Origin: a virus
DNA length: 24,324 nt
IMG/VR virus record: IMGVR_UViG_3300007072_000043
Location: 1 to 24,324 of that record
Direction: 5' to 3' (one strand)
In this document: piece by piece, positions 2,305-24,324 of the stretch
How positions within the stretch are numbered: position 1 is the first letter of the stretch
How the letters are laid out: each line of letters starts with the position of its first letter
Position numbers and translations under genes: made by a program
Notes under the pieces: generated by a model
Told to the model about the DNA's origin: nothing
Database searches by the model: none
Seen by the model: the letters and a program-made list of their open reading frames with translations, nothing else

Positions 2305-3856
2305 TTTTACACGGCACGCGTTTTTGATTGGGTTGTATGAATGCACGGCGCGCGAAGTGGTGGTGTTTAAGGCGAGCCAGTTGGGCGTGAGCGAGTATCT
2401 GGTGAGTTACGCGCTCCACGCTGCAGACGAGCGCAAGGCGACGGTGATGTACGTGTTTCCAACCGACGGTCACGTGAGCGATTTTTCAAGCGCGCGGATT
2501 GGGCCGGCGATTGAGGCCAGCCCGTATCTGGCGTCGATCGTCGTCGAGGGCGCGGCGGCCGGCGGGAAGCGCGGGGCGGATCGGGTGACGCTGAAGCGCG
2601 TGGGCGATCGATTTGTGTATTTTCGCGGCGCGCAGGTCGATCCGAATGGCAATGCGAAACAGCTGAAGTCAGTAGACGCGGATGTGTTGATCTTTGACGA
2701 AGAAGATGAGATGGATCCGCGCGCGGTGAGTATTGCGGAGAAACGGCTGGGCCACAGCGCGATCGCGGAGATCCGCAAGGCGAGCACGCCGACGTATGCG
2801 GGGACGGGCATCCACGCGGAGTGGCTGCGCAGCGATATGCGTGAATGGCACGTGGCGTGCGGACACTGCGGCGAATGGCAGCCGATTACGATCGACAACA
2901 TCGTGCTGGAGTCCGATCAGTTTGGGCGGCCGATCAAGTGGCACGGCGATGCCACCGACGCCTGGGCCGCGTGCCGGAAATGCGGCAAGCCGATCGATCG
3001 GGCAGGACATGGAGAATGGGTGGCGGCCCGCCCTGACGTTGATGTCGCCGGTTTTCACATGCCGAAGCTGATTAGCCCGAGCGTGAAGTTGATCGAGATC
3101 GTGAAGAATCTGGACACGGTCGACGAGACGAAGCGCAAGGAGACGTTCAATCAGGATTTGGCGCTGCCGTATACGCCGCGCGGCGGGCAGATGACGGACG
3201 AGATGCTGGATGCGTGCCGGCGCGATTACGCGCACGGACCGGTCAAGGTGGTCGACAGCGCGGGCAATGCCCGGGACGAAGAGACGGTGATGGGCGTGGA
3301 CGTGGGGCGCGTGATGCATGTGGTGATTCGCGGGGCGGTGCAGCCTGAGACGGGCGAGCGACCACAACGCTGGGCGGGCGAGGTGGAGAGTTGGGAGCGG
3401 CTGGAGGCGATGGCGCGCCTGTATCACGCGGAGCGGATTGTGATCGACGCGCTGCCCGAGACGACGAAGGCGCGCGAGTTTCAGGCGAAGTTCAAGCCGG
3501 GGCGCGTGTGGCTGGCGTACTACGTGAACCAGCGCACGGGAACGAAGAAGGAAGATCCACGCGATTGGAACTGGAACGAGGGCGTGGTTAATCTCGATCG
3601 AACGCGGACGCTGGACGAAATGTACGCGGCCTTGGTGGCCAAGACGCACACGCTGCCCGGCCATGCGCGCGACGTGCGCGACTATTACGCGCACCTGAAA
3701 GCGCCGGTGCGAGTGGTTGAGCATGGCGCGAACGGCACGCCGATGGCGCAGTATGTGGAGGGGTCTAACCCCGATCACTTAGCGCACGCGGAGAACTATT
3801 GCACGATTGCCATGCACGCGCCGAAAGCGCCCGAAGTGAAGATGCGGTGGCTGTAG
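2093..3856 (+). CDS. terL: terminase large subunit, GpA-like
   Basis: This packaging ATPase-nuclease pumps DNA into the prohead through the portal. It carries the variant Walker A of GpA-type terminases (FKASQLGVSE, residues 92-101), Walker B and catalytic acids (VLIFDEEDEMD, about 198-208), and two CxxC pairs (CGHC at 256-259, CRKC near 294) that suggest a zinc knuckle as in the GpA family. An RNase H-like nuclease core follows (MGVDVGR near residue 402, IVIDALPE near 450). The start is uncertain: GTG 2093 gives 587 residues, and ATG 2195 or 2222 would shorten a helical, basic leader. It overlaps terS by up to 212 bp in another frame. The product is somewhat shorter than lambda gpA (641). 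Confidence 0.93.
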   Translation: MTRNLTNSLQILKQSRARQARQQQAKALIERARRMGTGSQGRHMGLPQQCLPLLTWTTLHRRMLIPGRPLDFTRHAFLIGLYECTAREVVVFKASQLGVSEYLVSYALHAADERKATVMYVFPTDGHVSDFSSARIGPAIEASPYLASIVVEGAAAGGKRGADRVTLKRVGDRFVYFRGAQVDPNGNAKQLKSVDADVLIFDEEDEMDPRAVSIAEKRLGHSAIAEIRKASTPTYAGTGIHAEWLRSDMREWHVACGHCGEWQPITIDNIVLESDQFGRPIKWHGDATDAWAACRKCGKPIDRAGHGEWVAARPDVDVAGFHMPKLISPSVKLIEIVKNLDTVDETKRKETFNQDLALPYTPRGGQMTDEMLDACRRDYAHGPVKVVDSAGNARDEETVMGVDVGRVMHVVIRGAVQPETGERPQRWAGEVESWERLEAMARLYHAERIVIDALPETTKAREFQAKFKPGRVWLAYYVNQRTGTKKEDPRDWNWNEGVVNLDRTRTLDEMYAALVAKTHTLPGHARDVRDYYAHLKAPVRVVEHGANGTPMAQYVEGSNPDHLAHAENYCTIAMHAPKAPEVKMRWL

Positions 3857-3915: not shown

Positions 3916-5967
3916 ATGGGTGTGATTGATCGGGTACAGCGATGGATGGCGCGAGGGCTGGTGAAGGCGGCGGCGCTGCCGATTTTTCCAGAGTGGATGC
4001 GCTATTCCTTCAGCACGCCGACCTTCCAGGCATTGACGAAGGAAGGCTACAAGGGAAACGGCGCGGTCTTCGGATGCATCAGCGCGCTGGCGTTTGCGTT
4101 TCCAGAGCCGCCGCTGCTAGTGTGGCAGGAATCGGCTGGCGGTCAAACACCGCTGCGATCACACGGACTGTCGAAGTTATTGAAGCGGCCCAATCCGCAG
4201 ATGGGCATGGCGGAATTATTGCAGTACACGATCGTGTACATGGCGGTGGGCGGCAATTGCTACTGGTACAAGGTCCGCAGCGATGCGGGCCGGGTGGTGC
4301 AGTTGTGGCCACTGCACGACGGGCAGATTACGCCCGTGCCGGGCAAGACGCAGTTGATCGATCATTACACGTTGAACACGGGCGAAGGCGTGAGCGTGCC
4401 GATCGACGCGGCCGACGTGGTGCACCACAAGTGGATGCCCGACCCGATGGCTCCGCACAAAGGACTGGCGCCGCTGCTGGCCGTGGCGCGCGAGGTGGAC
4501 ACGGACAACGAGGCCACGCGGTATCTGTTTTCGCTGCTGAAGAATGATGCGATGCCGAGGCTGGGGCTGATAGTTCCGCCGGGCGTGGAACTGACCGACG
4601 ATCAATTCAAGCGGATGAAGAACCAGTGGAACGATGAACACGGCGAGGAGAAGCGCGGCGGGGTGGCCGTGCTGGAAGGTGGGTTGGACATCAAGACGAT
4701 TGCGACCAACCTGAAGGATCTGGAATTCAACGCGCTGCGGCGCGTGCCTGAAGCGCGCATTTCCGGGGCGTTCCGCGTGCCGGCCATCATCGCGCAGTTG
4801 TACGTTGGCCTGGAGCGCAGCACGCTGGCGAACTATGGCGAGGCGCGGATGCAGTTTGCCGAGGACACGCTGGTGCCGCTGTGGTCAAACGTCGCAGACG
4901 AAGTGACGGCCGATCTGTTGCCCGATTTTGCCGGACGCGATGACGAGGTTGTGGAGTTCGACCTGAATCGCGTAGTGGCGCTGCAGGCGCGCCTGAAAGA
5001 ACGGCGATCGTTTGCGCTGGACGGTTTCAAGTCGTACGGGATGACGCGGAATGAGTTCCGCGCTGCGGCTGAGTTGCCGCCAGACGCGGACGGCGATGTG
5101 TACGTGATGCCGCTGTCGATGGTGCAAGTGCCGGCGTCGATCAAGAGCGCGACGGGGCGCAAGATGCACCTGAGCCCGGCGACGGCGAAGCTGATGGCCG
5201 TGAAGGACAAGCGGCGCGATCAGGCGCAAATTATTGAGATGCAGCGCGCCGAGCGGCGCCTGGTGTTCGGGCGGATGGAGGCGGACCTTGAGCGCTATTT
5301 TGCAGAGTTGGCCGATCGGGTGGTGAGACGAGCGAGAGAGTTTGGGAAAGCCCTCGCCCCCAGCCCCGCTCCCATAGGGCGAGGGGAGGCAAAGGATTTG
5401 CCGCCCGCGGATCAATTGCTAACGGCCGCCGACAGCGCGGAACTGGGCGAGATCTTGAAGCGGTTCACGATCGAACTGGTGAATTTGTCCTGGGGGACGT
5501 GGAACGCGGCGCTAGGCGTTGAGGCGGCGTTTGATCTGAACGATCCGGCGGTGACGGAGTTGTTGGCCGACGCCGGTAAGCGCATCAAGCAGATCTCTGA
5601 CACGACGCTGAAAGCCGTGCAGGATTTGCTGCAAGAGGGAAGCGACGCCGGCTGGAGCATCGACCATTTGGTCAGAGGAGATCCGGCCACAGGCACACCC
5701 GGCCTGCGCGACATCGTACTGGAGACGTACAAGGGCCGGGCACAGACGATCGCGCGGACGGAACTGGGCAATGCCCAAAATAAGGCGGCGTATCACCGCT
5801 TTTTCGGCGCGGGCGTGACGAAGGTGTATGTGCTGGATGACGGGATCGGCGATGAGGACGAGCCGTGCGTGGCGGTGAACCAGTCGGTGAAGCCGATCGC
5901 GTGGATGAAAGAGCATCCGCTGGAGCATCCGAACTGCACACGGGCGTTTGCGCCGGAGTTCGAGTGA
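3916..5967 (+). CDS. portal protein fused to a Mu F / SPP1 gp7-like head morphogenesis domain
   Basis: This 683-residue protein seems to join two head proteins. Residues 1 to about 400 match the HK97-type portal layout: a ring at the capsid vertex through which DNA is packaged (GNGAVFGCISALAFAFPEPP, then AADVVHHKW, then RRVPEARISGAFRVPAIIA). Residues about 575-683 have the Mu F/gp7 signature: RAQTIARTELGNAQNKAAY, a DDGIGDEDEPC segment, then HPNCTRAFAPEF, which may be ejected or bind the capsid inside. Between them, residues about 478-495 (ALAPSPAPIGRGEA) are the translation of a family A palindrome, so the linker has taken in a repeat. ATG 3916 is preferred; GTG 3880 lies in a hairpin. It is followed after 25 nt by the protease gene. 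Confidence 0.9.
   Translation: MGVIDRVQRWMARGLVKAAALPIFPEWMRYSFSTPTFQALTKEGYKGNGAVFGCISALAFAFPEPPLLVWQESAGGQTPLRSHGLSKLLKRPNPQMGMAELLQYTIVYMAVGGNCYWYKVRSDAGRVVQLWPLHDGQITPVPGKTQLIDHYTLNTGEGVSVPIDAADVVHHKWMPDPMAPHKGLAPLLAVAREVDTDNEATRYLFSLLKNDAMPRLGLIVPPGVELTDDQFKRMKNQWNDEHGEEKRGGVAVLEGGLDIKTIATNLKDLEFNALRRVPEARISGAFRVPAIIAQLYVGLERSTLANYGEARMQFAEDTLVPLWSNVADEVTADLLPDFAGRDDEVVEFDLNRVVALQARLKERRSFALDGFKSYGMTRNEFRAAAELPPDADGDVYVMPLSMVQVPASIKSATGRKMHLSPATAKLMAVKDKRRDQAQIIEMQRAERRLVFGRMEADLERYFAELADRVVRRAREFGKALAPSPAPIGRGEAKDLPPADQLLTAADSAELGEILKRFTIELVNLSWGTWNAALGVEAAFDLNDPAVTELLADAGKRIKQISDTTLKAVQDLLQEGSDAGWSIDHLVRGDPATGTPGLRDIVLETYKGRAQTIARTELGNAQNKAAYHRFFGAGVTKVYVLDDGIGDEDEPCVAVNQSVKPIAWMKEHPLEHPNCTRAFAPEFE
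5351..5385. repeat. palindromic repeat, family A, inside the portal gene
   Basis: CCCTCGCCC (5351-5359) is exactly complementary to GGGCGAGGG (5377-5385) across a 17-nt loop. It is read in frame as ALAPSPAPIGRGEA, in the linker between the portal and Mu F-like parts, where an insertion would be tolerated. Confidence 0.75.
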
Positions 5968-5992
5968 TGGGCGGCGACGCGCATAGGAGGAA

Positions 5993-7066
5993 ATGATGGA
6001 CGAGGCGATGGAGTTTAAGGCGTGCCCGATCGAATTTAAAGCGGTAGGTGATAAGGGCGAGTACGAGGGGCATTTTAGTGTCTTTGGCAACGTCGACGAC
6101 GGCAACGACATGATGCACGAGGGTGCATTTGCAAAGACGCTCGCCGAGCGCGGCAATCGGGTGAAGGTATTCTATATGCACGACTGGACAAAGCTGATCG
6201 GACCATCGCCGAAGACGCTGAAAGAAGATGCGATTGGGCTATTTGCTGCAGGTCGGCTAACGCTGAACTCGTTCTGGGGTAATGAGACATTTGCGTTGTT
6301 GAGAGATGGCGCGCTTAATGAGGGGTCGATCGGCTATGAGGCGGTGAAGTGGGACATTGAGAGCGTATCTGACGGCCGGCCGATTCGCCATTTGCGCGAG
6401 GTGAGGTTGTACGAAATTTCGCCAGTACCGCTGGGGATGAACGCATTGACCCAGATCCGAGCAGTCAAGAGCGCGGCGCTTCAAGCCGTGAAGCGATCGT
6501 TGCCGCCGAAGGAGACGCCGAAGGCAGACGTTGATACGGAATGGGACGCGGCGGCTGTGCTGAAAGACGCGAGAGGCGCAAAGCAATTGCGAATGATCCA
6601 CGCGTGGGTCGATCCAGACGGCGATCCGGATGCGCAGTCATCTTACAAATTGCCGCATCATTTGGCCGACGGGCGCGTGGTCTGGAAGGGCGTATCGGCA
6701 GCCGGGGCGACGCTGATGGGCAGCCGGGGGGGGGTGGATATCCCGGAGGCAGATGTACCGGGGGTACAGCGTCATCTGAATTTGCACTATCGGCAGTTCA
6801 ATCAGACTCCGCCGTGGGAGAAAGGCGCGAGTCTGGATGTATATGTGCCTGTACTGGCGCAGATTTTCGAGGAGTTGAAGGCGGGTCAGATGCTGATGAC
6901 TGCGTCACGAGAGAAGCAGGTCGAAGTACGCGATCTGGTGCAGTCCGCATTAGATGAATTGAGCCGAACGATCGCAGCCGCCGAGCCGAAACAAATGGTT
7001 GCTCACTCGGCACTGCTGGTCAAGCGATTGCGAGCCGCCGAACTGGCACTCGTGCGGATGAAGTGA
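5993..7066 (+). CDS. HK97-family prohead protease with an extra C-terminal domain
   Basis: This is a 357-residue maturation protease. Residues 1-150 show the U35/HK97 protease fold: a conserved start (GEYEGHFSVFGNVDDGND), the catalytic His at H63 (FYMHDW), the catalytic Ser at S112 (LNEGSIGYE) and the closing EISPVPLGMN. It should cleave the scaffold-like delta region of the capsid protein and then itself. Residues about 185-275 form a second domain (WVDPDGDPDAQSSYKLPHH, GGVDIPEADVPGVQRHL), which I know only as a conserved unit attached to some phage proteases and capsid-related proteins. A helical tail follows. AGGAGG at 5985-5990 supports ATG 5993 or 5996. A run of nine G lies at 6726-6734. 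Confidence 0.92.
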   Translation: MMDEAMEFKACPIEFKAVGDKGEYEGHFSVFGNVDDGNDMMHEGAFAKTLAERGNRVKVFYMHDWTKLIGPSPKTLKEDAIGLFAAGRLTLNSFWGNETFALLRDGALNEGSIGYEAVKWDIESVSDGRPIRHLREVRLYEISPVPLGMNALTQIRAVKSAALQAVKRSLPPKETPKADVDTEWDAAAVLKDARGAKQLRMIHAWVDPDGDPDAQSSYKLPHHLADGRVVWKGVSAAGATLMGSRGGVDIPEADVPGVQRHLNLHYRQFNQTPPWEKGASLDVYVPVLAQIFEELKAGQMLMTASREKQVEVRDLVQSALDELSRTIAAAEPKQMVAHSALLVKRLRAAELALVRMK

Positions 7067-7112: not shown

Positions 7113-8420
7113 ATGAAACAGCGAATCAATGAACTGTACGATGAGGCTAACGCGCTGCACGCGCAGGCGAAGGCGATTCTGACCGAATTTGACGGCAAGG
7201 AAATGCCGGCCGAGAAGAGCGTCGAGGTCGACAAGTTGCTCGACCAGGTGGAAGCGAAGACCACCGAGGCGAAGCGGCTGGAGCGCGCGATGGAGCAAAA
7301 TGCGTTCTTGAACGAGCCGGCCAACCCGAAGGGCATCTTCGGCGCGAATCAAGACACGCCGGAAATCAAGGTGCAGTGGGGCGGCCGCACGCTGGACCGG
7401 GATGAGGTGAAGGAACTGCAGACGGCCGCGCAGTTCGGCGCGTTTGTGAACGTGCTGAATCCGGAGTACCAGAAGGCGCTGAAGCGCTACATGCGCTTTG
7501 GCGCGAGCGAGCTGAGCGCCGACGAGCGCAAGGCGCTGGCCGCGGGTGAGGGCCCGGCGGGCGGGTATCTGGTGCAGGATACATTCTGGAACGGTCTGAT
7601 CGTTAAGGCGGGCGAGATGAGTGCGATGCGGCGCATTGCAACCGTGCTGCCGCCGGTGCCGTCTGGCAGCGTGATTGCGCCGGCCGAGGACAGCGTGTTC
7701 AGTGATGCGACCTGGACGACCGAGGTGCAGACGGGCGCGGAGGAGACGCTCAATCCGTTTGGCCAGCGCAAGTTGCAGCCGCACCCGCTGGCGAAGCGCA
7801 TCAAGGTGAGTAACCAATTGATGCGCGTGCCGACGTTCGATGTGGAGGGTTACATTCGCGATCGACTGGCTTATAAGTTCGGCGTGACGCAGGAAAACGC
7901 CTTCATCAACGGCAGCGGCGCGCAGCAACCGCGCGGCCTGCTGAATACTCCGAGCCTGCCGACGTGGACGACGGCCGCCTCGAACACCGTTGATTCGGAT
8001 GATGTGATCAACTGGGTGTATAGCCTGCCGGCGGCCTATGCGGCCAGTCCGAAGTGCCGCATCCTGAGCAACCGAGCGTTCATCCGCAAGGTGCGCCAGA
8101 TGAAGAGCGGCCTGGGCGAGTACGTGTGGCAACCCGGTCTGCAACTGGGCAGCCCGAATCGCATTCTGGATGTGCCGTACGAAGTGAGTGATCGCTTTGA
8201 CGATGGTCTGGACGCGAGCGATGCTTGGGAGGATAACGCGGTGATCGCGGTGATCGGCGATTTCTCCTACTACTGGATCGTTGACGCGTTACAGATGAGT
8301 ATCCAGCGGCTGGTGGAGTTGTACGCCGAAACGAATCAGACGGGCTTCATCGGCCGGATGGAGAGCGACGGGCAAGCCGTGCTGGCCGAGGCGTTTTACG
8401 CGCTGAAGGTCAAGGCCTAA
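7113..8420 (+). CDS. major capsid protein, HK97 family
   Basis: This 435-residue protein has the HK97 layout. Residues 1 to about 70 are a charged coiled-coil scaffold (delta) region (INELYDEANALHAQAKAIL) and are expected to be removed by the protease encoded just upstream. The shell domain follows, with GPAGGYLVQDTFWNGLI, a P-domain strand-rich part (VSNQLMRVPTFDVEGYIRD), FGVTQENAFINGSGAQQPRG and the C-terminal VELYAETNQTGFIGRMESDG, which is typical of HK97-like capsids. I did not identify a crosslinking Lys/Asn pair with confidence. It lies directly after portal and protease and before the decoration-like protein, the normal order. Confidence 0.95.
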   Translation: MKQRINELYDEANALHAQAKAILTEFDGKEMPAEKSVEVDKLLDQVEAKTTEAKRLERAMEQNAFLNEPANPKGIFGANQDTPEIKVQWGGRTLDRDEVKELQTAAQFGAFVNVLNPEYQKALKRYMRFGASELSADERKALAAGEGPAGGYLVQDTFWNGLIVKAGEMSAMRRIATVLPPVPSGSVIAPAEDSVFSDATWTTEVQTGAEETLNPFGQRKLQPHPLAKRIKVSNQLMRVPTFDVEGYIRDRLAYKFGVTQENAFINGSGAQQPRGLLNTPSLPTWTTAASNTVDSDDVINWVYSLPAAYAASPKCRILSNRAFIRKVRQMKSGLGEYVWQPGLQLGSPNRILDVPYEVSDRFDDGLDASDAWEDNAVIAVIGDFSYYWIVDALQMSIQRLVELYAETNQTGFIGRMESDGQAVLAEAFYALKVKA

Positions 8421-8430
8421 CAATTAGCAA

Positions 8431-8477
8431 TGCTCAATGCTCAATGCTCACTGACAGCCGTCAACGGGCATTGAGCA
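8431..8477. repeat. tandem and inverted AATGCTC repeats after the capsid gene
   Basis: TGCTCAATGC at 8431-8440 is followed by a partial tandem copy (TCAATGCTCA), and its exact reverse complement GCATTGAGCA lies at 8468-8477. A long hairpin is possible between the capsid gene and the decoration-like gene. No T-run follows, so it is not a standard terminator; it might tune how much downstream mRNA is made or kept. Confidence 0.6.
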
Positions 8478-8501
8478 CTGACCATGATCTGGAGACCCAA
8501 C

Positions 8502-8939
8502 ATGAAAAGCATCTATCACGATGTGAAAGCGGTGCTGGTGGCCGAGAAAATCAACGGCGATAACGAGACGATCAGCACCTCGGTCGTCGATACCGCCGGC
8601 TACGAGGGCTGCGCATTTTTGATCGGTGCGAGCAAGGGCGAAGTGGCCGCGCTGACGGCGAAGGCCCGACAGGACACCGACGCGGCCGGCGGGACGATGG
8701 CCGATCTGGAAGGGACGAGCATCGCGATTCCGACAGCGGTGGCGACTCCGGCCAGCGGGATCATCGATGTGTATCAGCCGCGCGAGCGATACCTGCAATG
8801 CCAGGTGGTGGTGCCGAATGTGACCATTCCGATTGCGGTGCAGGTGTGGGCGCTGCTGTACGGCGCGCACAGCGTGCCCGTGACGCAGACCGCGACCGCG
8901 AGCGAGTTCCACCAGAGCCCGGCGGAAGGGACAGCGTAA
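8502..8939 (+). CDS. small structural protein after the capsid gene, probable head decoration-like
   Basis: This 145-residue protein lies directly after the capsid gene. It has a beta-rich pattern (STSVVDTAGYEGCAFLIGASKG, then IIDVYQPRERYLQCQVVV, then IPIAVQVWALLYG) resembling small structural proteins that follow capsid genes in many siphoviruses and are thought to cover or stabilise the shell. ATG 8502 is preferred to ATG 8484 because GGAG (8491-8494) lies 7 nt before it. A free-standing tail-side role is also possible. The assignment rests on position and general fold pattern, not on a motif. Confidence 0.65.
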   Translation: MKSIYHDVKAVLVAEKINGDNETISTSVVDTAGYEGCAFLIGASKGEVAALTAKARQDTDAAGGTMADLEGTSIAIPTAVATPASGIIDVYQPRERYLQCQVVVPNVTIPIAVQVWALLYGAHSVPVTQTATASEFHQSPAEGTA

Positions 8940-10813: not shown

Positions 10814-11233
10814 GTGATTGATCCACAAGAGGCCGTGATCCGATTTTTGAGCAACGACGCCGAGTTGAAGGCGATCGTCGATACACGAGTGGCGGCGAAG
10901 CATCGCTACGGCGTGGGCTGGACGGTCGGCACGGCCGGGTTGATGGTGCGGCTCGACGGCGGTCCGGTTGATCTGTACGTGCCGATGCAGGCGCTGCGCT
11001 ATGAGGTGCGGTGCTACGCAGCCAGCCCGGTGGAGGCGATGCGCATCTGGAAACGGCTGGTGGCGGTTAGCCGTGAAACACAGCGCGTGCGAGTGACGGT
11101 GTCCGACGGAACGGCGCTGCTGTATCGGTTTATTCAGGACTCCGGGCCGTCGCAACTGTACGACGACGACATCAAGATGGACTGCGTGCTGAGTTTTTTC
11201 TCGGCGGCGGTGGCGGAAGAAAGTTGCCAGTGA
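10814..11233 (+). CDS. tail terminator-like protein
   Basis: This 139-residue protein follows the gp10-like gene, where siphoviruses usually place the tail terminator that caps the tube. It has a helical start (PQEAVIRFLSNDAELKAIVD), a strand carrying VDLYVPMQALRYEVRCYA (with the R.EVRCYA pattern of such proteins), PVEAMRIWKRLVAV and a C-terminal strand (MDCVLSFFSAAV). It uses GTG as start. The family call rests on position and pattern. Confidence 0.72.
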   Translation: MIDPQEAVIRFLSNDAELKAIVDTRVAAKHRYGVGWTVGTAGLMVRLDGGPVDLYVPMQALRYEVRCYAASPVEAMRIWKRLVAVSRETQRVRVTVSDGTALLYRFIQDSGPSQLYDDDIKMDCVLSFFSAAVAEESCQ

Positions 11234-11283
11234 TCGGTAATTGGTGATCAGTAACCGGTGATCGGCGATTAGCGATCGGGAGT
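11234..11283. repeat. degenerate GGTGATCAGTAAC-type tandem repeat
   Basis: The gap is made of altered copies of a GGTGATC / GCGATTAGCGATC unit (GGTGATCAGTAACC, GGTGATCGGCGATTAG, GCGATCGGGAG). Such text-like degenerate repeats are common between genes in some bacteria. GGGAG at the end lies just before the next ATG at 11290. Confidence 0.55.
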
Positions 11284-11289
11284 TGGAAG

Positions 11290-11511
11290 ATGCGTAAGAA
11301 GACGAAAGAGATTGAGGATAAGGGTCTCACCCCCGTCCCCTCTCCCAGTGGAGAGGGGAGTACAACAGGGGAGGAGGAACGCACGATCGAGATGCGGCGG
11401 GGACGAGCGTGGCAGCTGGGCACGCGCACGCTGCAAGCGGGTGAGACGGTGACGCTGGATGCGGCGACGGCGGCGAAAATCGTGGCGGCCGGGTACGCGG
11501 ATTACGTGTAA
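11290..11511 (+). CDS. small protein built partly from a palindromic repeat
   Basis: This 73-residue frame lies between tail terminator and tail tube genes. Residues 12-30 (GLTPVPSPSGEGSTTGEEE) are the in-frame translation of a family A repeat. The C-terminal 38 residues (RAWQLGTRTLQAGETVTLD, then ATAAKIVAAGYADYV) look like a real small domain, similar in feel to short head-tail proteins whose end reads A..L...GYA. If the repeat were an insertion, the ancestral protein would be about 55 residues. The gene is likely real because its C-terminus is protein-like and the tail tube RBS follows at once. Confidence 0.6.
   Translation: MRKKTKEIEDKGLTPVPSPSGEGSTTGEEERTIEMRRGRAWQLGTRTLQAGETVTLDAATAAKIVAAGYADYV
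11337..11377. repeat. family A repeat plus CAACAGGGGAGGAGG copy
   Basis: CCCCTCTCC (11337-11345) pairs exactly with GGAGAGGGG (11350-11358) around CAGT. It is followed by CAACAGGGGAGGAGG (11363-11377), a 15-nt exact match to 1382-1396, read in the same frame in both genes. Confidence 0.75.
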
Positions 11512-18983: not shown

Positions 18984-19943
18984 TTATTTCTTTTTCTCAC
19001 CGAATGCGGCGCGGACAGCGCCCGCTGCACCCAGCCCGGCATCTTGAATGTAGCCCCGCATCACCGCTTCGCTTTTATGGCCGGTCTGCGCCATAATGTC
19101 ACGCGATTCAACGCCGGCGTTGGCGGCTTCAGTGATGAAGCCCGAGCGCAGTGAGTGTCCGGCAAAGTCCATGTCTGCCAAGCCGGCGCGTTTGGCCGAC
19201 TTCTTCACAATCAACGCGACCGACTTATCGGATAGCCTGCCATGCACATGCCCGTGGCGATCGATACTGCGAAAGAGCGGTCCGCCGTGAATCTGGCTCT
19301 GTGAAAGCCACGCTTTGAGCGCTCGCGCCGGGCAGATCTGTGCGTCATCGAGCACGGGAATGATCTTGACCAGACCTTTGCCTTCTTGATCGGTTTTGCT
19401 GCGCCTGACTGTAACTGTGATCTTGTCGGTGAGGCGCACATCGGCGACATCGAGGGCGACCAATTCAGAGCGTCGGAACGCGCCTGCCCAGCCGACGAGC
19501 AGCAGTGCTTTGTCTCGCAGGCCGATTAAGCCAGGCGGAAGTTTTGCGACCATCTTTTTAAGTTCGTCGCGAGTGACGGGTGCTTTCTTGCGCGGCGCGG
19601 TACCCAGCCGGCGTCGGATGCCGGCCATGATGGTTTTTACATCCGCATCAGTTGTGGGGTCGGGCTGGTGTGACATGCGATGAGCTTCGGCGATGGCAGC
19701 CAAACGAACCTGAAGCGTTGAGACCTTCAGATTGCGCGCCAGGACGGTCAGATACTCGATCACGGTTGCGGGCCTGGCCGGCAGCGCTGTGGCATGATGG
19801 TCGTCACAATATTCTGTGAAGTCTTGCCAGGCGATTCTGTAGGCGGCGATGGTGCGCGGCGCTTTGGACGATCTGGCGAACTTGAGCGCTTCGTCGCTGA
19901 TGACGATAGATCGAGATTCTACGGCTTGAAGTGTGTGTGTCAT
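18984..19943 (-). CDS. int: tyrosine recombinase / phage integrase
   Basis: This 319-residue integrase would cut and join the element at attP and attB. The N-terminal part (about 20-110) is a core-binding domain (APRTIAAYRIAWQDFTEYC). The catalytic set is visible: R157 in GAFRRSEL, K183 in RRSKTDQEG, H263 and R266 in GHSLRSGF, H289 in TGHKSEAV and Tyr298 in MRGYIQ. The start ATG overlaps the stop of the small upstream gene (ATGA). In the same frame, codons before the ATG stay open to a TGA at 20058, and read like protein (see findings). No excisionase was recognised beside it. Confidence 0.94.
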   Translation of the reverse strand: MTHTLQAVESRSIVISDEALKFARSSKAPRTIAAYRIAWQDFTEYCDDHHATALPARPATVIEYLTVLARNLKVSTLQVRLAAIAEAHRMSHQPDPTTDADVKTIMAGIRRRLGTAPRKKAPVTRDELKKMVAKLPPGLIGLRDKALLLVGWAGAFRRSELVALDVADVRLTDKITVTVRRSKTDQEGKGLVKIIPVLDDAQICPARALKAWLSQSQIHGGPLFRSIDRHGHVHGRLSDKSVALIVKKSAKRAGLADMDFAGHSLRSGFITEAANAGVESRDIMAQTGHKSEAVMRGYIQDAGLGAAGAVRAAFGEKKK

Positions 19944-20071
19944 GGCCGCCTCATGTTCCGATAAGTGTGCTTCGCGGAAGTCAGGATCGGCAAAAATGTT
20001 ATACGGATCGTGATCAGGCGTGGCACGTCTTCGGCCAACTGTTCTTCCGTGAGCATCTCAGTCGTCGTCAT
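19940..20071 (-). CDS. small protein before the integrase, overlapping
   Basis: This 43-residue frame (ATG at 20071; an in-frame ATG at 20080) overlaps the end of the gene before it and ends in TGA overlapping the integrase ATG (ATGA). Its first half (MTTTEMLTEEQLAEDVPR) looks like real protein. The second half (LITIRITFLPILTSAKHTYR) looks less so, while another frame there looks better. It may be a leader used for coupling, or a gene broken by a frameshift. Confidence 0.4.
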   Translation of the reverse strand: MTTTEMLTEEQLAEDVPRLITIRITFLPILTSAKHTYRNMRRP

Positions 20072-20213
20072 CGTTATCATCCTCGTCGCCAAACTCTTCG
20101 CCGGCGCGATCGATTGGCCGGAGATTCGCTCCAGTTCGCTCAGGCAACGCGCGCAGGTCGGCAATGCGCTTGCGGTACTCGTCCTGCATCCGCTCGAATT
20201 GTTCGCTGGTCAC
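20058..20213 (-). CDS. small acidic-tailed protein
   Basis: This 51-residue protein starts with GTG that overlaps the stop of the gene before it (GTGA). It has a helical start (SEQFERMQDEYRKRIADLRA), then a linker, and ends in a run of acidic residues (EEFGDEDDNDDDD). Such an acidic tail could mimic DNA or bind a basic partner; that is inference only. No family recognised. It is too short for most gene-calling filters. Confidence 0.6.
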   Translation of the reverse strand: MTSEQFERMQDEYRKRIADLRALPERTGANLRPIDRAGEEFGDEDDNDDDD

Positions 20214-20398
20214 CAGGTGGTGATGCTGTAGATCGCGCCCGGCCCATATTCGGCGGTGAACTCGGGCGCGACTTCGGTAGCCGGCACGTCGATGCGCAAG
20301 AGCGGAAACAGCGACGTGTCTTTGGTGACGCGGCCGGCCAGTGTTTTGTGGCCGAAGAGTTCAACGATTGCCCAGGTGCTGCTTTGCTGCTCGTCCAC
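20210..20398 (-). CDS. small conserved-type phage protein (WAIVELFGH motif)
   Basis: This 62-residue protein has the pattern W.IVEL.GH..LAGRV...LLRIDVP...FTAEYGPGAIYSIT. I know this pattern from small proteins in many phages and prophages, and its function is not established. GGAG at 20407-20410 lies 8 nt before the GTG start, which supports the call. It follows the HerA-like gene by 12 nt, in the same operon. Confidence 0.75.
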   Translation of the reverse strand: MDEQQSSTWAIVELFGHKTLAGRVTKDTSLFPLLRIDVPATEVAPEFTAEYGPGAIYSITTW

Positions 20399-21907: not shown

Positions 21908-22363
21908 TTAATGTGATGAAGTTTCATCAGATTGCCCGGCACGCTTGCGCACCAGGCCGATCAATTGCTTTAGCGCGAGGTCCATCTGACTGCGGGCCTC
22001 GACGACTTCAAGTAGCAGTATCAACGCTTCAGAGTCTATCGATTGATCGGCTTGCATGATTTCATAGAGTCGCTGTACATTGGTCAGATCTGCATGGTTA
22101 GGCGCGACGCGGTTTCGCTTTCCAGCGCCAACCTGTTGCCACCAGCCGTGGACGCGACCGGTGTATTTGGCGAGCCAGCGATAGCCGCGACGTTCGCGCA
22201 GCCATAAAACCATGCCCTGCAACCGCTTAAATTCACGCGAATTCAGGCGCGATACTGCGACAGCAGCGACAGCAGGGTGCTGTCGCTGCTGTCGCTTGAC
22301 AGTCCGATGTGCGATGTGGCTTTTTGACGATCGCTTCACCGTGGGCTTCCTGTGCGTTTTCAT
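21908..22363 (-). CDS. basic 151-residue protein, function unknown
   Basis: The first 45 residues are strongly basic (KTHRKPTVKRSSKSHIAHRT), followed by a helical middle (LNSREFKRLQGMVLWLRERR; RGYRWLAKYTGRVHGWWQQV) and a C-terminal helical domain (LILLLEVVEARSQMDLALKQ). This fits a nucleic-acid binding protein. It lies just after the 9-mer array and could be the protein that binds it, though that is guesswork. The start overlaps a small upstream frame (ATGA). It is followed by the HerA gene after 15 nt. Confidence 0.7.
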   Translation of the reverse strand: MKTHRKPTVKRSSKSHIAHRTVKRQQRQHPAVAAVAVSRLNSREFKRLQGMVLWLRERRGYRWLAKYTGRVHGWWQQVGAGKRNRVAPNHADLTNVQRLYEIMQADQSIDSEALILLLEVVEARSQMDLALKQLIGLVRKRAGQSDETSSH

Positions 22364-22461
22364 GATCTCTGCCTCTTATTCTTCAGGCTCTTCTCCAGCA
22401 TAAGCAACCGATTGAAGTAACTGTCCTGGTCTCCTTGCGTGTGCGGCGTGTGTCGAATCAC
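22360..22461 (-). CDS. possible 33-residue protein reading into the next gene
   Basis: This open frame (GTG at 22461; earlier GTGs to 22500 are possible) ends in TGA overlapping the ATG of the 151-residue gene (ATGA). Its end, DQDSYFNRLLMLEKSLKNKR, looks like real helical protein. No convincing Shine-Dalgarno was seen. The frame runs through part of the 9-mer array, so repeats and coding overlap. Confidence 0.35.
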   Translation of the reverse strand: MIRHTPHTQGDQDSYFNRLLMLEKSLKNKRQRS

Positions 22462-22566
22462 GCGCGACACACGAGAATTCTCAAGCGACACACGGCACAC
22501 GGACGAGGCGCGTGTGTCGCATAGTTTTAAGGACTTTCCGTCGTGTGTCGCGTGATCCGTGTGTCG
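22447..22566. repeat. array of six exact CGTGTGTCG 9-mers
   Basis: Exact copies are at 22447-22455, 22511-22519, 22542-22550 and 22558-22566 (plus), and at 22465-22473 and 22486-22494 (reverse complement). Degenerate ones include GCGTGTGCGG (22437-22446) and CACACGG (22496-22502). Spacings of 21 and 31 bp are near whole helical turns. A perfect palindrome, GAGAATTCTC (22473-22482), lies inside. The copies fall in different reading frames and both directions, so selection seems to act on DNA. A binding array, origin iterons, or a clt-like site is plausible. Confidence 0.85.
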
Positions 22567-22570
22567 TCAT
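22481..22570 (-). CDS. possible 29-residue basic peptide after the FtsK-like gene
   Basis: ATG at 22568-22570 overlaps the FtsK-like stop (ATGA). The product (MTTHGSRDTRRKVLKTMRHT...) is very basic. The frame runs over three copies of the 9-mer array. It may only be a by-product of the array, as its codons repeat the CGACACACG text. Confidence 0.25.
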   Translation of the reverse strand: MTTHGSRDTRRKVLKTMRHTRLVRVPCVA

Positions 22571-23997
22571 TTCGGCTGCTCAACCCATCCCACCGCTTCA
22601 CGCAACCCACGGCTGATCCGCCGAGAGGTATTGACGGCCGCGGCCGGCAACAACAGCCCAGACTTTTCCCACTGATTCGCCAGATCGCGCAATTCCTTGC
22701 GTGGCGTCTGCGTACCGTAAAACTCCCGTGAGAGTTCGCGCAGCTTGAAGTAGCCTCCCAGATGTTGCAGCGAATACAGCACCAGCTGCTTTTGATCAGG
22801 CGTCAGGTCAAGCCCGTGCCCGTGCTCGGCAGGCGTCCAGCGGCGCGCGAGATTGACGGTGGCCGCGGCCAACTGCGCGTCGTCGACGTAGTAGCCCTGC
22901 GCCTCAATCGCTTCACCAGCCAGAACGGCCAGCAGCCGGCCGGGTCCGGCCAGGCCGACCCCGCCCCGCTGGCCGTCGCCCAGGATGGCTTCGGACTGAT
23001 AGCGATCGGTGCAGCGGAAAGCGATTCGCAGATCGCACTGCTGGCGCAGGACGGAGTCGATCACGTCGGTTTTGGTGGAGGTGGCCGACATGATCAACCG
23101 GATGCCATACGAGGCCGCTTTGCTGCTGAGCGACTTTAGCAGCGGGATGAAGTTGCGCTTGCCGCCGGTGGCGGCGAGATCGACAAATTCATCGACGATC
23201 ACGACGATGACGGGCAGCGGCTGGGTGGTCTGCGCGTTGTAGCCGGCCAGGTTGCGGCACAGCGCCGATTCGAATAAGCCGCGCCGGCGCGTGAGTTCGT
23301 CGGTCAGCGTGGCCAACAGCCGGACGGCGCTGTCGATGTCGCGGGCGACCGGCGCGAACAGGTGCGGCGACTGATACCAGTGCACGAACTCGCCCTTGGG
23401 ATCGACAATTGCGAACTGGACGCGCGCGGGCGAGGCCGCCGACGCGATCGAGAGCAGTGCGGCCTGTTCAAACGAGCTCTTGCCATGCTGGGTCAGGCCG
23501 CCGATCAAAATATGCATAGGCTTGCCCAGATCGATCCAGCGCGGACCTGACAGTGTGACCCCCAGCGGAATGTACAGATCGCCGGCGGGGCGCGTCGAGA
23601 GATCGAGCGAGACCCGCTCAGGCAGACGAGCGGCGACGGGCGCGCTACTGGCCGGGCGGGCGGCGAGCTGCACAACGTACATGAAGCCCAGAGCCGGATC
23701 GCGCAGCGCGAACACGGGCTTGCGCACGGCCAGCGCCAACCGGTCGGTGTAGCGCTTCGACGACAACACGTCGAGGTCGAGATGATAAAGCCGAGCCTCG
23801 TCAAGCCAGAAACCCAGGTAGCGCGCGGCGTTGGCTTCGCCAAAGACGGCCCAGTCACGGAAGCGCAGCATCTGCGGCGCGCGGGCGTTGGTGGCCGTGA
23901 GCTGATCAAGCGTGGCAAGCATGATCTTGCCGTAGCCGCGTAGCCGATCGAGCGCGACGGGCAGGGGCGGCTGAGCCTGTCGGGTGATGGCGGTCAT
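22567..23997 (-). CDS. FtsK/SpoIIIE-type DNA translocase
   Basis: This 476-residue ATPase has Walker A at 166-174 (GGLTQHGKS), Walker B near 263-270 (VIVVIVDE), and the FtsK-type segments SATSTKTDVIDSVLRQQCDL, RIAFRCTDRYQSEAILGDGQ and GLAGPGRLL, which mark the motor domain. There are no membrane segments in it; the protein encoded just upstream could anchor it. The C-terminal region (about 400-460, QKQLVLYSLQHLGG...LRELSREF) looks like a winged helix, as in FtsK gamma, which reads DNA motifs. The start at 23997 overlaps the previous stop (ATGA). A 9-mer array begins right after the stop. TraB-like conjugative or segregation role is possible. Confidence 0.88.
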   Translation of the reverse strand: MTAITRQAQPPLPVALDRLRGYGKIMLATLDQLTATNARAPQMLRFRDWAVFGEANAARYLGFWLDEARLYHLDLDVLSSKRYTDRLALAVRKPVFALRDPALGFMYVVQLAARPASSAPVAARLPERVSLDLSTRPAGDLYIPLGVTLSGPRWIDLGKPMHILIGGLTQHGKSSFEQAALLSIASAASPARVQFAIVDPKGEFVHWYQSPHLFAPVARDIDSAVRLLATLTDELTRRRGLFESALCRNLAGYNAQTTQPLPVIVVIVDEFVDLAATGGKRNFIPLLKSLSSKAASYGIRLIMSATSTKTDVIDSVLRQQCDLRIAFRCTDRYQSEAILGDGQRGGVGLAGPGRLLAVLAGEAIEAQGYYVDDAQLAAATVNLARRWTPAEHGHGLDLTPDQKQLVLYSLQHLGGYFKLRELSREFYGTQTPRKELRDLANQWEKSGLLLPAAAVNTSRRISRGLREAVGWVEQPK

Positions 23998-24324
23998 AGT
24001 GCACCCTCGGCCAAGTCGTCGAGCCGATCGAGCACGCTTGGGTCCGTGACGATGCGCGGCGCAGCGGGCAGACGGACCTCGTCGCGAGCGGGCGCGCCAG
24101 GCTCGCCGGCGGTCTCCACGATGACGGTTTGATAGCGCTTCAGCCGGAAGGTCAGCATTACCAGCACGCACAGCGCCAGTAGCAGCGCACAGAGCAACGC
24201 GCCGGCCGCCACACGGGTGCTGTAGAGCTGGCTGGTGAGCGACTCAATTAACGTGCGCTTAGTCGCCTGCTCGATGGCGAGGTCTGATCGCAATTGCGCA
24301 GCGGTCAAATCGGCACGCAAGGCC
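23994..24324 (-). CDS. single-pass membrane protein, 5' end possibly outside window
   Basis: The frame is open to the window edge; a TTG at 24320 could be its start (108 residues). An N-terminal helix (DLTAAQLRSDLAIEQATKRT) comes before one membrane segment (GALLCALLLALCVLVMLTF), then a charged tail with KRYQTVIVETAGEPG. Its stop overlaps the FtsK-like start (ATGA), so the two are co-translated. It may anchor the translocase at the membrane, standing in for the missing transmembrane part. Confidence 0.65.
   Translation of the reverse strand, partial: ALRADLTAAQLRSDLAIEQATKRTLIESLTSQLYSTRVAAGALLCALLLALCVLVMLTFRLKRYQTVIVETAGEPGAPARDEVRLPAAPRIVTDPSVLDRLDDLAEGAL

Follow-up and report, generated by a model that had tools for sequence, protein, structure and literature searches.

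A compact repeat array conserved between two phage elements that encode an FtsK-like motor is very probably a cis-acting site

To our knowledge, FtsK-like motors are commonly encoded by phages, but the DNA sites of these motors are for the most part not known. KOPS, which are polar, occur dispersed over the chromosome. The clt loci of Streptomyces plasmids comprise short repeats and inverted repeats that are read by the FtsK-like proteins TraB/TraA (PMC3583192). The clt of pJV1 has nine 9-bp repeats, CCGCACA[C/G][C/G]; that of pWTY27 spans 175 bp at the 3' end of tra, with 16 bp inside traA, and that of pIJ101 is a 54-bp stretch near korB, away from tra (all PMC3583192). In TraB, a C-terminal winged helix reads 8-bp repeats (PMC3583192; PMC4170104). 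Two further types of repeat are described in such plasmids. The pWTY27 iterons consist of five GTGGGAAC and five TTCCCAC units on both strands, with AT-rich parts (PMC3583192), and in Streptomyces pIJ101 the small DNA-binding protein SpdA2, from a family of 117–163 aa, binds to palindromes located within the gene that encodes it and makes the plasmid more stable (PMC4170104). In temperate phages, one of them Chloroflexus-associated, FtsK/SpoIIIE genes have been reported as accessory genes (PMC8597652).

The window analysed here is the entire 24,324-base IMG/VR virus record IMGVR_UViG_3300007072_000043. Its plus strand carries tail, capsid, portal, terminase and lysis-type genes. The first gene on the minus strand, for a membrane protein, is truncated by the end of the record; then come, in order, an FtsK/SpoIIIE-like motor, the array gap, a 151-aa protein, a HerA-like ATPase, a small gene and a tyrosine recombinase (Table 1). 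The array gap is the longest in this otherwise tight operon and lies just upstream of the 151-aa gene. The most likely ftsK start is the ATG at 23997, whose ATGA overlaps the membrane-protein stop, and the small membrane protein is likely the anchor of the motor. The small gene (20061–20398) appears frameshifted and shortened compared with its counterpart in a related element (4648–5079), to which it shows 70% identity over 64 aa and then similarity in another frame.

The 151-aa gene starts behind a ribosome-binding-like AGAGG and shows weak coding statistics in its first 60 codons. Searches of Pfam and other family collections gave no match to its product, and a low-confidence structure model (pLDDT 54.5) gave none in Foldseek. 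The gene also holds a palindrome, GCGACAGCAGCGACAGCA/TGCTGTCGCTGCTGTCGC, which has GCGACA in common with the array units and is not conserved in the relative; it is a possible accessory site.

Table 1. Positions of the array, its component sites and the neighbouring genes in the window
Feature	Position	Strand	Remarks
Tyrosine recombinase (integrase), only one in window	18984–19943	-	2.5 kb from array, several genes between
HerA-like ATPase, 493 aa	20411–21892	-	Pfam DUF87, E 1.5e-9
Basic 151-aa protein, predicted all-helical	21908–22363	-	Family: none found
Perfect 18-bp inverted repeat, 3-nt loop	22257–22295		Each arm two GCGACAGCA units; first third of 151-aa frame
Degenerate site CGTGTGCGG	22438–22446	+	Two mismatches; just left of array
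Six exact CGTGTGTCG sites	22447(+), 22465(-), 22486(-), 22511(+), 22542(+), 22558(+)	+ - - + + +	Exact search
Block homologous to relative 8457–8584	22467–22594	+	71/100 identical in BLAST core; BLAST E 6e-8 in 28.7-kb record
Degenerate site CGTGTGCCG	22493–22501	-	One mismatch; 2-bp overlap with third exact site (22486)
AT-rich TTTTAAGGACTTT	22525–22537	+	Between plus sites; counterpart in relative is TTTTAAGCACTTT
FtsK/SpoIIIE-like motor, 476 aa, candidate array reader	22567–23997	-	Pfam PF01580, E 5.6e-24
Small membrane protein, cut by record end	23994–24323	-	Stop overlaps ftsK start (ATGA)

A preliminary description of this DNA had reported six exact 9-mers within 120 bp, in both directions and in different reading frames, and exact searching bore this out. 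CGTGTGTCG occurs six times in 22447–22566, four times on the plus strand and twice on the minus strand, and nowhere else in the 24.3-kb record, rather than being equally dense throughout it. The last copy adjoins the stop codon of the FtsK-like gene (22567–22569), as had also been stated. The start-to-start spacings are 18, 21, 25, 31 and 16 bp, so that the two values given earlier, 21 and 31 bp, both occur as part of a longer series. Shuffling of the whole window gave an expectation of 0.58 copies, and six copies were reached in none of 100 shuffles. Over all 9-mers, the densest 120-bp cluster held six copies in the window as against two to three in 100 Markov-shuffled windows. Allowing one mismatch adds a single copy in the region, the CGTGTGCCG site at 22493(-). 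With this and the CGTGTGCGG site counted in, the relaxed pattern YGTGTGY has eight sites in 200 bp where 0.13 would be expected.

On the minus strand, one frame of the gap stays open for 68 codons, and its end overlaps the start of the 151-aa gene in an ATGA. However, a protein repeat was rejected as the source of the copies, which occur on both strands and in each of the three phases of this frame. The RNA fold of the array has a z-score of only -1.9, which does not favour an RNA element either, and a search of the array against Rfam gave no match. Comparison of the array DNA with a plasmid collection likewise returned no match.

Protein scans of viral contigs identified one close relative, the 28.7-kb record IMGVR_UViG_3300021090_000085; searches of these contigs with FtsK, HerA and the 151-aa protein returned the same relative alone, or nothing. 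The comparison thus covers two elements, both possibly fragments. They share a set of non-structural proteins: the HerA-like ATPase (80–81% identity), the FtsK-like motor (47–48%), a small protein, the membrane protein (33%, to a 280-aa membrane/coiled-coil protein of the relative) and an integrase (27%). The 151-aa protein has no counterpart in the relative. In the relative, the ftsK stop (2308) is followed 22 bp on by a 78-aa ORF, so that the suggestion that relatives might lack repeats in this gap is literally true, there being no gap behind its ftsK, but a homologous array lies about 6 kb away.

This displaced array was flagged by a k-mer scan as ACACACAG repeats, and close reading of the place identified it as a diverged array. 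It occupies 8433–8556, in a 350-bp intergenic stretch (8244–8600) holding 16 YGTGTGY sites against 0.34 expected, and is inverted relative to ftsK, with array and ftsK on opposite sides of HerA. The relative has two tyrosine recombinases (5894–6940 and 7310–8239), the second of which directly precedes the array; the array starts about 10 bp past its stop, and the next gene follows about 400 bp further. A search of the relative's array DNA against phages gave no match.

Alignment of the two arrays over 128 bp scored 61, compared with a maximum of 31 in 500 dinucleotide shuffles. Because both arrays are repeat-rich, we also used a harder null, in which the window's repeat units were kept while spacers and strands were permuted and shuffled; this gave a mean of 29.7 and a maximum of 41, and again none of 500 reached 61. 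The geometry is retained along with the sequence. Measured from 22486 in the window and 8477 in the relative, the corresponding sites lie at -21(-), 0(-), +7(-), +25(+), +56/+55(+) and +72/+71(+). Six of the eight window sites therefore match in strand and in position to within 1 bp, and none of 500 random placements reached six. The conserved core reads - - - + + +, three minus sites and then three plus sites. It includes the overlapping pair 22486/22493, kept at 8477/8484, and in both elements the AT-rich TTTTAAGSACTTT lies between its first two plus sites. An alignment above both nulls, together with the kept strand and spacing, indicates that the relative's array is, as judged by sequence, homologous to that of the window with its geometry preserved.

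Beyond this pair, the 9-mer pair was found at 53 places in viral contigs. Judged by repeat layout, and by a close view of L010, L014 and IMGVR_UViG_3300000116_000581, these were rejected, being repeats in tandem, repeats within coding sequence or phages that are unrelated and lack this FtsK. In L010, a 56.6-kb phage contig, 12-bp CGTGTGTCGCTT repeats at 3169–3257 fall within a 226-aa minus-strand frame (2782–3462) and are likely protein repeats. IMGVR_UViG_3300000116_000581, an unrelated phage, carries at 11215–11325, just behind a 614-aa primase/helicase-like ORF, an array rich in GTGTCG whose sites oppose one another. This was rejected as a homologue of the window array (score 30, shuffles up to 35) and is possibly an origin. 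The core pattern GTGTGTCN{3,9}TTTTAAGNACTTT recovered the relative, one chance match in an AT-rich phage and no others. Ten other phage records with a HerA-like protein (34–45% identity) have no FtsK in the whole record and no comparable array. Control FtsK-like genes in other phages and in a chromosome-like plasmid have no array nearby, and therefore such arrays are not a general companion of FtsK-like genes. In the spring podovirus MW202482.1 (12485–16869), an SMC-like 'chromosome segregation protein' is followed by two small genes and then, as the third gene, a HerA-like helicase; the layout resembles the FtsK-x-HerA order of the window, but without FtsK.

Taken together, the array is very probably a functional cis-acting site. 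Rather than having arisen by chance or belonging to a neighbouring gene, the repeats probably form a docking site for a DNA-binding machine. Since the geometry of the array is kept while its place and direction have changed, it does not look like a single gene's operator but resembles an origin, a partition or loading site or an attachment site. The best fit is a cis site that is independent of position and orientation, of the loading/transfer, origin or partition type; an operator of the neighbouring gene fits worse. The earlier placement of the array directly behind ftsK is thus a feature of the window and is not conserved, and the idea of a self-coded recognition site, proposed on that basis, survives in part: the array exists, occurs once in the element and, as would be expected for a recognition site encoded by the element, keeps its arrangement in the only other element found with this FtsK, whereas its place behind ftsK is not kept.

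Our tentative preference, which falls short of an even chance, is a conserved non-coding cis site that loads several copies of one putative DNA-binding protein, likeliest the FtsK-like motor, for transfer or segregation. On this model, copies of the protein would assemble on the array, which would serve not as the promoter of a single gene but as a mark of the element's own DNA. The motor itself would be the reader, by way of its conserved C-terminal domain, and would be anchored by the membrane protein whose gene directly precedes ftsK. Once loaded on the array, the motor may pump or segregate the element's dsDNA, much as a clt locus works with TraB. Between window and relative, the C-terminal core of FtsK (414–445) is 75% identical, whereas the motor reaches 52% and the N-terminus 37%; this segment was chosen after the alignment was seen, and the difference is suggestive only. 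A structure model of the protein (pLDDT 32.5) was too poor to judge its fold. In favour of FtsK as reader, array and FtsK co-occur, and the ten HerA-only phages lack both. Against it, with two elements the co-occurrence amounts to one evolutionary event, HerA is equally shared and even more conserved than FtsK, and sites of mixed orientation do not resemble KOPS, which are directional, or TRS, which are direct repeats. From the sequences, FtsK is a plausible reader. The 151-residue protein, put forward earlier as another candidate, is a poor one: an element-coded reader should be common to both elements, and this protein is not shared, which makes it unlikely. A self-coded recognition site of the FtsK-like motor would be the single most likely mechanism, well below even odds, with an origin of replication close behind.

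For the origin, a serious contender although itself rather unlikely, the repeats would be iterons for an initiator coded outside both fragments, and the AT-rich TTTTAAGSACTTT would aid strand opening. Iterons typically combine repeats in mixed orientation with AT-rich stretches, as in pWTY27 (PMC3583192); here the AT-rich element is conserved at a fixed distance and the array is independent of position. The GTGTCG-rich array behind the primase/helicase-like gene of the unrelated phage points the same way. However, no replication initiator was recognised near the array in the window or in the relative, both of which may be fragments, and GC skew shows no sharp switch at the array, falling to about zero across the whole minus-strand block. 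The array could alternatively be a centromere-like partition site, with a small protein of the element or of the host as its reader. Such sites are typically clustered and independent of position, and SpdA2 offers a precedent (PMC4170104), given the perfect palindrome in the 151-aa gene; but neither ParA nor ParB was recognised and the 151-aa protein is absent from the relative, and we regard partition as very unlikely.

Explanations that tie the array to a neighbouring gene fare differently in the two elements. An operator cluster, through which a repressor or activator controls transcription from the gap (with the 151-aa gene and HerA downstream in the window), is improbable: the array does fill the longest gap of a tight operon, upstream of a gene with an AGAGG, and the relative has a weak HTH protein at the equivalent gene position, but there the array lies behind a recombinase, some 400 bp before the next gene and inverted to the ftsK-HerA operon. 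Moreover, the 151-aa protein is not common to both elements, a promoter scan of the array gap in the window was empty, and 8 to 16 sites are many for an operator. Arm-type sites of a tyrosine recombinase attP are also short repeats in both orientations, and the relative's array begins just past a recombinase stop, the classical place for attP. This adjacency is not kept in both members, the window's integrase standing apart from the array (Table 1); the relative's adjoining recombinase has no window homologue at E 1e-3, and the corresponding integrases are 27% alike as against 71% for the arrays. An attachment site is accordingly quite unlikely. Slippage can create repeats, and the array might be a functionless remnant of slippage or recombination, but it is not tandem, runs in both orientations and keeps its spacing across 29% divergence, leaving this the least credible explanation by far.

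A compact, conserved candidate site in an element with an FtsK-like motor makes the question of its reader directly testable. If the reader is the motor, phages would use plasmid-type dsDNA transfer or segregation; should the array be an origin, it would locate the replication site for an uncharacterised group of phages. A bolder form of the motor reading, which we consider doubtful, is a tailed-phage element with a complete dsDNA transfer or segregation module of the clt/TraB kind, in which a conserved loading array, with several sites in divergent symmetry, would act together with an FtsK-like motor and a membrane anchor to move the phage genome, or to partition it, by a route separate from virion packaging.

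Compared with KOPS and FtsK gamma, the locus has in common a short DNA motif for which the C-terminal domain of an FtsK-like motor is a possible reader. It differs in having all six copies in one 120-bp cluster, and the analogy drawn earlier is not supported: the sites point both ways, and the last 91 residues of the motor match no Pfam family at E<=10, FtsK_gamma included. SpdA2/sps is similar in pairing a protein family of 117–163 aa with a palindrome in its own gene, as the 151-aa gene does here, but no homology was found as far as tested, and its palindrome is a 12-bp CGTCACGTGACG rather than the non-conserved one of the window. The iteron origin of pWTY27, of the theta-plasmid type, also has a repeat on both strands, AT-rich parts and a compact non-coding locus, and it fits the mixed orientation of the array better than clt/TraB sites do; it differs in that no Rep gene was recognised beside the array in either element. 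From clt, the array is set apart by its orientations, clt repeats being direct whereas here the order is + - - + + + (conserved core - - - + + +), and by its setting in an element that carries the structural genes of a phage (terminase, portal and tail). The motor itself matched the NCBIfam plasmid_TraB model far below cut-off (E 0.09), with FtsK and EssC models scoring better. The degenerate site at 22438 and that at 8330 in the relative contain CCGCACACG on one strand, which fits the pJV1 unit; given that the plasmid search returned no similar DNA, we take this to be coincidental. In their overall plan, the clt loci of pJV1, pIJ101, pWTY27 and pSVH1 are alike, with clustered short repeats (7–9 bp) and inverted repeats within ~50–175 bp on the same element as an FtsK-like gene, beside it or away from it, and a repeat cluster on the same element as the FtsK-like gene is likewise present in both elements that carry this FtsK.
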